Assembly: GCA_029258325.1 (NCBI GenBank)
Contig: JARHZF010000016.1
Location: forward strand, 1 to 55,092
Reading direction: 5' to 3'
From: Anaerobiospirillum sp.
GTDB taxonomy: Bacteria; Pseudomonadota; Gammaproteobacteria; Enterobacterales; Succinivibrionaceae
Length of the DNA: 55,092 nt
The position numbers were made by a program, and so were the translations under genes. A model generated the notes under the pieces. The model was given only the letters and a program-made list of their open reading frames with translations, was not told where the DNA came from and made no database searches. Shown piece by piece: positions 14,900 through 16,600 of this stretch (its first letter is position 1; every line of letters starts with the position of its first letter).

Positions 14900-14930
14900 A
14901 GAGGGAAGCTTTTTAGGCTTCCCTTTTTTT
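14900..14930. terminator. Bidirectional terminator between rpsT and the NADAR gene
   Basis: GGGAAGC (14903-14909) pairs with GCTTCCC (14917-14923) around a seven-base loop, with A-run on the left (14894-14900) and seven T on the right (14924-14930). It can end both the rpsT transcript and the converging minus-strand gene. Confidence 0.9.
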
Positions 14931-14940
14931 ATATTTAAAT

Positions 14941-16329
14941 TTAATCTTTATTAAAGGCTGAAAATAACTCTTCACATAAAAGTCTTTCTTGTCTTTTACG
15001 TCTATCTTCAGAACTTGTATCTAAGATTTCTTTTCTTGTACTTTTAAGAGTAAAAAAGGATGGATCTATAGATAAACTATTATCTTTATTTTCTAAAACT
15101 TCTATAGACTCACTTTCATCTACTTTCTTACGTGGTCTACCACGCTTACCCTTTACTTTTACAACCTCTTTGCTTGCACTAACTTCACTATCAACAACAA
15201 CTTTACGAGGTCTGCCTCTTTTTCTTTTTACAACAACTTCCTCAACTAAAGGAGTCTCTACTTCCTCTTTTTCTTCTTTTTTCTTTAAGTATGCTGTAAA
15301 TACCCTACCTTCTTTTTTATTTTCATCATCACTTGCACTTACCTCAATTAAAGTCTCATCATTATTTACATCATCATTTGCACCTAATTTTAGATTTGAA
15401 TTTTCAATTTTGTAAAAAGAATAAGAATTATCTTCTTTTTTCTCATTTAAGAGATCACTTTTACATAAAGCTTCACTTAAATTCTTTAAATCAAAAGGTT
15501 TAGTAAAACTATCCTTTCTTGTATTTTTATCCTTTAGGTTAAATGATATTTGTGACTTTAATGTCTGTGTATTTGAATAATAAGAGGTATTTTTTCTTGC
15601 TATAAAGTTATCATCATCTTGTAAGTTATAAGAGCCTCTTGCTCTTTGTAGGGATTTAGATGAGCTTTCTTTTGCTACATCTTTATAAACTATATTTATA
15701 AAATTTTCCTTACTTAATAAGGCTTTTTCTATTAAACCTTTATTACGCAGTGCTACATATATAGCACAAGCCTCAGCTTCTGAATAAGAACCTACATTAT
15801 ATTCAATATCAGTAAAGGCATCATATTGCATAAGTTCATCTGCAAAAACCCTATTTTCTTTTATTTTATGTAGTGTACTTATATAAAGATAATTAAAAAA
15901 AGCATTACTATATTCAACATCAAAACTTAAGTGGAAAAATTTAAATCCAACTAAATCTCCACTTTCAAAAAGACGTTTGTCTTTTTTTATAGTATTTATG
16001 TCTTGATGCAATAAATCTAAATAAGGTCCACCATTTTTAAATACTTTACTTGCATAATAAATAGAATCTAGGGCAAAAACATTTTTATTTTTAGTGCTTA
16101 ATTTTAATTTATGAGCACTTAGTTTATGTCCTAAAGGTGAATTTGAACGATTTGATACTTCTAACACTTTTTTAGATGGATTTAAGCGTAAAAAAGAGTT
16201 ATGCAATGATTCTATGCTTTGTTGAGTTTTACTTGGAGAAAAAAATCCTACAAATTCAAATACAGTATTAACAATACAAAAATGTTTTGTATTCTCCGTA
16301 GAAACCATAAATACAGGTTTTGTTGCCAT
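14941..16329 (-). CDS. NADAR-like protein of the DarT1-antitoxin type with C-terminal AT-hooks
   Basis: A 462-residue protein. Residues 1-216 closely match what I recall of the 'DarT1-associated NADAR antitoxin' family (DUF6977): MATKPVF start, SPSKTQQSIESLH near 31, KKVLEVSNRSNSPLGHKLSA at 53-72, ASKVFKNGGPYLDLL at 93-107, MQYDAFTDIEYN at 167-178, and EACAIYVALRNKGL at 186-199. Such NADAR proteins remove ADP-ribose from guanine in DNA and so reverse the DarT1 toxin. Here a linker of about 150 polar residues follows, then two AT-hook motifs, KRKRGRPRK (368-376) and KRGRPRK (395-401), and a charged helix. No DarT-like toxin (about 200 residues) is adjacent: rpsT lies on one side, a small-RNA candidate and fliR on the other. 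The family call is from memory; the AT-hooks are unambiguous. Confidence 0.68.
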   Translation of the reverse strand: MATKPVFMVSTENTKHFCIVNTVFEFVGFFSPSKTQQSIESLHNSFLRLNPSKKVLEVSNRSNSPLGHKLSAHKLKLSTKNKNVFALDSIYYASKVFKNGGPYLDLLHQDINTIKKDKRLFESGDLVGFKFFHLSFDVEYSNAFFNYLYISTLHKIKENRVFADELMQYDAFTDIEYNVGSYSEAEACAIYVALRNKGLIEKALLSKENFINIVYKDVAKESSSKSLQRARGSYNLQDDDNFIARKNTSYYSNTQTLKSQISFNLKDKNTRKDSFTKPFDLKNLSEALCKSDLLNEKKEDNSYSFYKIENSNLKLGANDDVNNDETLIEVSASDDENKKEGRVFTAYLKKKEEKEEVETPLVEEVVVKRKRGRPRKVVVDSEVSASKEVVKVKGKRGRPRKKVDESESIEVLENKDNSLSIDPSFFTLKSTRKEILDTSSEDRRKRQERLLCEELFSAFNKD

Positions 16330-16518: not shown

Positions 16519-16600
16519 AAAAAAATAAAGGACAATACCTTTTGTACTGTCCCTTATATAGCAGAAGAACCACCATCTGCATAAGTTAGCATACACTAAC
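16519..16600 (-). ncRNA. Candidate small RNA with two hairpins and intrinsic terminator
   Basis: Reading the minus strand from about 16600: hairpin GTTAG...CTAAC (16600-16585), hairpin GCAGA...TCTGC (16580-16561), then a terminator stem AAGGGACAGTAC / GTATTGTCCTT (16555-16528) followed by ATTTTTTT (16526-16519). It is a GC-richer island in a very AT-rich gap. A promoter with 17-base spacing precedes it (16602-16630). Total length about 80 bases with no credible reading frame. The terminator would also end the fliK-fliR transcript, whose last stop is at 16736, so a 3'-UTR origin is the main alternative. Confidence 0.5.

Follow-up and report, generated by a model that had tools for sequence, protein, structure and literature searches.

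We analyzed a 55,092-nucleotide stretch of DNA from an Anaerobiospirillum species (hereafter, "the window") and found a gene, at 14941..16329 on the minus strand, whose 462-residue product joins a DarT1-type NADAR domain to a long polar tail carrying two AT-hooks, in a genome in which we detected no DarT toxin. The ligand pocket of the domain is conserved in part and altered at four positions that are nearly invariant among relatives. We tentatively favor the reading, which we regard as possible rather than probable, that the protein is an eraser that arrived by horizontal transfer, has lost its toxin and has acquired a tether to the minor groove, and that it would now act as an attenuated or re-targeted guanine-ADP-ribose hydrolase. 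A catalytically dead reader is a close rival.

The open reading frame is a genuine gene by its frame, its Pfam match and its codon statistics. It begins with ATG, and GC content at third codon positions is 0.11 in the NADAR domain and 0.14 in the tail, compared to 0.125-0.22 in the neighboring genes. Codon-use scores are 0.30 for the domain and 0.38 for the tail (window genes, 0.31-0.41) and fall below zero in both shifted frames; domain and tail alike are coding-like, with host-like codon usage and positional GC. The gene lies between rpsT, which is convergent with it, and fliR, which is upstream in the same orientation. A hairpin scan placed one terminator-like hairpin where the rpsT and NADAR genes converge, 3' of both (14902..14924, reported on the minus strand), and another behind fliR, 5' of the NADAR gene (16525..16557, minus strand). 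Because the latter separates the gene from fliR, the NADAR gene probably forms a transcription unit by itself and is transcribed alone. A promoter scan at the gene did not rise above shuffled sequences, the repeats on either side of it were just short AT-rich matches, Rfam and tRNA searches of the window returned nothing, and there was no match in NCBIfam, PHROGs or PADLOC. In the single other genome of the genus, where rpsT and fliR are about 41 kb apart, a clean empty site was not demonstrable; five flagellin-like genes adjoin fliR there (L026 2785-8048).

The NADAR domain spans residues 1-215 (15685..16329, minus strand). The Pfam profile for NADAR-DarT1 (PF22397) matches residues 2-214 over its full length (1-212 of 212) with E = 1.2e-58 and a score of 198.5 bits, far above the cut-off of 27, and the solved NADAR of G. 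lovleyi (8bat), to which identity is 38%, aligns to residues 1-215 at 7e-36. An AlphaFold2 model, built from an alignment that included 81 relatives, has high confidence across residues 1-228, with pLDDT mostly > 90 in the domain. Fitting the domain to 8bat gives Z = 30.6 and an rmsd of 1.6 over 214 residues (TM 0.92 by target length). The superposition of the domain model on YbiA (2b3w) is weak (Z = 7.0). The first-pass annotation had proposed an N-terminal domain of this type and suggested a profile search as a check; both profile and predicted fold bear it out. Since residue 88 is not the glutamate seen in relatives, we assign the protein to NADAR-DarT1 (PF22397, the BC4488 subfamily) only by sequence family and by fold, and do not claim an active DarT1-type antitoxin.

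Residue equivalence to the E. coli C7 NADAR was assigned by motif (E-x6-K, a Lys 20 residues further, and TD-I-E), using the spacing given in PMC11543638. The protein retains K95 (16045..16047), K115 (15985..15987), R119 and D174 (15808..15810; D171 in C7), the last being the catalytic Asp of NADAR-DarT1 where YbiA has Glu. On the other side, E88 has become Asp (16066..16068; all four codons on the minus strand), and Q92Y, F73H and Q184E are further pocket changes. In the C7 protein, K95 and D171 are required for efficient hydrolysis, and substitutions at E88, K95, K115 and D171 give no rescue from DarT1 in vivo (PMC11543638). E88A has a minor effect in vitro and E88Q abolishes activity, and in vivo E88 is essential, with neither alanine nor closely related substitutions giving rescue (PMC11543638). 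Given the changes at E88, Q92, F73 and Q184, the earlier description of the protein as an "eraser" cannot be assumed as it stood: the lysines, the arginine and the catalytic Asp of the pocket are kept, and the Glu that is essential in C7 is not.

These changes are unusual for the family. Among 121 relatives, every one with a residue at position 88 has Glu there, and almost all have Q92, F73 and Q184. These counts are biased by the partial retrieval of this set through contig-scan patterns favoring E88, Q92 and FNP, a scan that relatives like the window protein could have escaped. When conservation was rechecked on profile-only relatives from Lachnospiraceae and Clostridia, E88, K95, K115 and D171 were present in all intact canonical members, with one Q92H. 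Of the 41 columns in which at least 95% of members agree, our protein differs at 12, one other sequence (L170) at 11, and the rest of the intact members at 4 or fewer; a higher count in L037 reflects a truncated sequence. L170 is the same open reading frame as L167 (1489-2334), a degenerate NADAR paralogue with D88, L92, R95 and R115, in which F73 and Q184 are also changed. Its genome also carries a canonical member (L158), and the pattern in the paralogue looks like decay or repurposing.

The altered pocket raises the close rival, which we hold to be less than likely: that the NADAR domain has been repurposed, with catalysis gone or another ligand bound, and serves as an AT-hook-held reader of ADP-ribose or a nucleotide, or as a ligand-gated nucleoid or DNA-binding factor. 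Such a role would fit the 12 of 41 near-invariant columns that are changed (E88, Q92, F73 and Q184 included), the independent paralogue altered at the same four positions, the full retention of the fold and the longest terminal branch in the tree (see below). It fits less well with the retained D174, K95, K115 and R119, and the E-to-D change at 88 is conservative.

The phylogenetic position of the protein is isolated. Its terminal branch, at 1.33 substitutions per column against a median of 0.24, is the longest of 122 rows, and it is placed within mostly gut Bacillota sequences in a poorly resolved region where no starred branch contains it. No close relative emerged from the searches made. 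Among 56 genomes of its bacterial family, PF22397 occurs in this gene alone, which makes acquisition from outside likely, and 96 relatives yielded no homologue. Phages yielded no close homologue, nor did viral contigs searched with the single sequence, and plasmids contained no full-length relative. There are 28 plasmid records that match the domain alone, and all 10 that were inspected encode proteins of 228-247 aa directly 3' of DarT.

The gene might also be the leftover antitoxin of a lost DarT1-NADAR locus, now decaying and without function. The eroded pocket residues would suit such a history, and truncated NADAR remnants do occur in other genomes. Against it, the frame is intact, which with a terminal branch of 1.33 argues for selection on the protein; codon usage is host-like across domain and tail; the fold is predicted with high confidence; and a long tail has been added whose two AT-hooks keep their amino acids in spite of mostly different codons. 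We consider a functionless remnant very unlikely.

No match to the DarT family was found in the genome (2.6 Mb in 222 contigs, 94.8% complete), and no darT lies beside the NADAR gene, whose flanks are rpsT and fliR as noted above. We therefore do not class the locus as a DarTG1 system. The first-pass annotation had called the protein solitary, with neither flanking gene a DarT, and had asked for a genome-wide search. The description holds for the locus and for the genome at its present completeness. Lacking DarT is not rare in the family, which changes that first view. We searched 16 genomes for DarT, 15 of them chosen for a DarT-less NADAR-DarT1 gene and one for a DarT-linked gene, and found it in the DarT-linked one only, so that all 15 others are without DarT anywhere. 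Likewise, the intact members that the profile search recovered from Lachnospiraceae mostly have no DarT within the retrieved stretch, and the tree requires at least seven switches between DarT-linked and DarT-less states. For some viral contigs, which end at the NADAR gene, DarT linkage cannot be judged. Since other DarT-less relatives retain the catalytic residues, a stand-alone role for such family members is plausible. No conserved partner emerged for them: what lies upstream varies among lineages (Ppx/GppA, aldehyde dehydrogenase and tRNA methyltransferase, among others) and is in no case DarT.

The searches also turned up several other arrangements. A papain-fold glutamine-deamidase-type toxin domain (PF15644) lies just 5' of one DarT-less NADAR (L082 4026-4706). 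DarT and NADAR matches fall in a single 491-codon frame in a Selenomonadaceae MAG (L061 4185-5657), an apparent toxin-antitoxin fusion or an assembly error. On a viral contig, a NADAR beside DarT is fused to a DUF5677 domain (L135 4992-6563).

The toxin search covered the DarT family only, in a genome sequence that may lack about 5%, which leaves some room for the protein to be the antitoxin of an unrecognized ADP-ribosyltransferase toxin elsewhere in the genome. There is a precedent in myxobacteria, where YarT is paired with a YbiA-type NADAR (PMC11125620). We find this improbable here, as the gene is probably monocistronic and sits between a housekeeping and a flagellar gene, in a genome without DarT. 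The YbiA-type proteins, including this ART-YbiA pair (PMC11125620), have the superfamily fold (2b3w) and likely the chemistry in common with our protein, but form another subfamily; the same genome encodes a separate YbiA-type NADAR (L177, contig C116; PF08719, 171.7 bits) in a 313-codon open frame.

Beyond the ordered domain, residues 229-437 (15019..15645, minus strand) form a polar stretch predicted to be disordered (pLDDT mostly < 50), followed by a predicted C-terminal helix at residues 440-460 (14950..15012, minus strand; pLDDT ~ 85). The two AT-hooks were confirmed at exactly the positions first reported, KRKRGRPRK at residues 368-376 (15202..15228) and KRGRPRK at 395-401 (15127..15147), both on the minus strand. 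The AT-hook profile PF02178 scores 22 bits against a cut-off of 17.4 over two stretches, and when the 247-residue tail was shuffled 100,000 times, two [RK]GRP cores never appeared and one core appeared in 0.18% of shuffles; chance would not be expected to produce the pair. In a six-frame search of the genome there were four AT-hook matches at E ≤ 1, two of which are in this tail. The sole other match above the cut-off is a transposase-like protein, a 500-aa open reading frame with AT-hooks at its C-terminus (L003 1483-2985, contig C189). The hooks have RGRPRK in common and mostly encode it with different synonymous codons, an argument that it is the amino acids that have been retained.

We found no AT-hook core in the tails of the other relatives examined, no NADAR with AT-hooks elsewhere among the sampled relatives or in the literature searched, and no relevant paper that joins NADAR with AT-hooks or the sliding clamp. 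Bacterial AT-hook proteins include Myxococcus CarD. That protein likewise carries a DNA-binding tail on an unrelated N-terminal domain, which in CarD binds RNA polymerase and in our protein is a NADAR.

Other members of the family end differently. A loose sliding-clamp-like peptide (e.g., QLSIFD, QLDLFS, QLSLFD) closes 48 of 95 DarT-linked members (L038-L154), where shuffling gives 4.9 on average; it is absent from all 18 DarT-less members, the majority of which are almost tail-less. It resembles the bacterial clamp motif consensus, QL[S/D]LF or QxxLF (PMC12309361), and could serve in clamp binding or, equally, in DarT binding; the NADAR literature searched does not mention it. The window protein has no QxxLF-type peptide at its extreme C-terminus (an ending that is not a published criterion); an internal QISFNL at residues 260-265 (15535..15552, minus strand) is at most suggestive in its likeness to the clamp-type C-terminal peptides of relatives, such as QISFNFD in L051. 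Five DarT-less NADARs carry a Tudor-like (UvrD/PcrA) C-terminal extension (L114 4986-5897, L123 3326-4258, L158 1357-2556, L173 1285-2148, L174 1492-2340), called in L123 from a Pfam PcrA_UvrD_tudor match of 0.0036, under the cut-off, and in the others by eye. DarT-less NADAR-DarT1 proteins with added C-terminal modules thus appear, from these sequences, to be a small class. The Tudor-tailed members have in common with our protein the lack of DarT and an appended module; theirs is Tudor-like with a canonical pocket, whereas ours consists of AT-hooks with a changed pocket. Other DarT-less members, from gut Bacillota and Actinomycetota (e.g., L054, L069, L118), are also stand-alone genes in genomes without DarT, and several have Y147 in common with our protein, but they retain E88, Q92 and the CQ pair and most stop right behind the domain. 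The DarT1-NADAR pairs (DarTG1) of E. coli C7 and G. lovleyi (PMC11543638; 8bat) have the NADAR fold, K95, K115, R119 and the catalytic Asp in common with it. In contrast to them, our protein is without DarT, carries E88D and the further pocket changes, and has a 247-residue tail with AT-hooks where many DarT-linked members have a short tail ending in a QxxLF-type peptide.

Under the tethered-eraser reading that we favor, an AT-rich gammaproteobacterium would have acquired a NADAR domain of DarT1 type, a sort found in this analysis chiefly in gut Bacillota, and the protein would work alone, without a DarT partner. The AT-hooks would anchor it to the AT-rich chromosome via the minor groove. The domain would strip ADP-ribose from guanine, or from a related adduct of a base or nucleotide, with activity reduced or specificity shifted by E88D, Q92Y, F73H and Q184E. 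The benefit may be a chromosome shielded from guanine ADP-ribosylation by outside enzymes, such as those of invading DarT1 plasmids or phages, or injected ADP-ribosyltransferases. The scanning of AT-rich DNA and the defense against incoming toxin- or phage-encoded ADP-ribosylation that were first proposed are plausible. The tethered eraser is favored by membership in profile and fold, the retained K95, K115, R119 and D174, the two AT-hooks, not expected by chance, the genome without DarT and the gene's probable transcription on its own, and also by the report that NADARs from other species neutralize a non-cognate DarT1 (PMC11543638). What counts against it is that near-invariant E88, Q92, F73 and Q184 are all changed, when E88 substitutions give no rescue, and that the sole other member with comparable loss, L167/L170, also has K95R and K115R and looks decayed or repurposed.

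As this gene shows, a DarT1-type NADAR can persist in the absence of its toxin and be remodeled with a new tail that targets DNA. If active, the protein would erase base ADP-ribosylation on its own while tethered to DNA; if inactive, it would be a natural pseudoenzyme that could report on the importance of the pocket residues. Together, AT-hook, Tudor-like and clamp-like C-termini suggest that the delivery of NADAR to DNA is a variable and testable trait. It is a more speculative idea, and one that we consider unlikely, that the domain has been released from antitoxin duty, and perhaps from catalysis, and has become an AT-hook-held chromosomal reader or specialized eraser of a DNA ADP-ribose mark. 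If this were true, DNA ADP-ribosylation or its readout would be used outside toxin-antitoxin systems in this organism.
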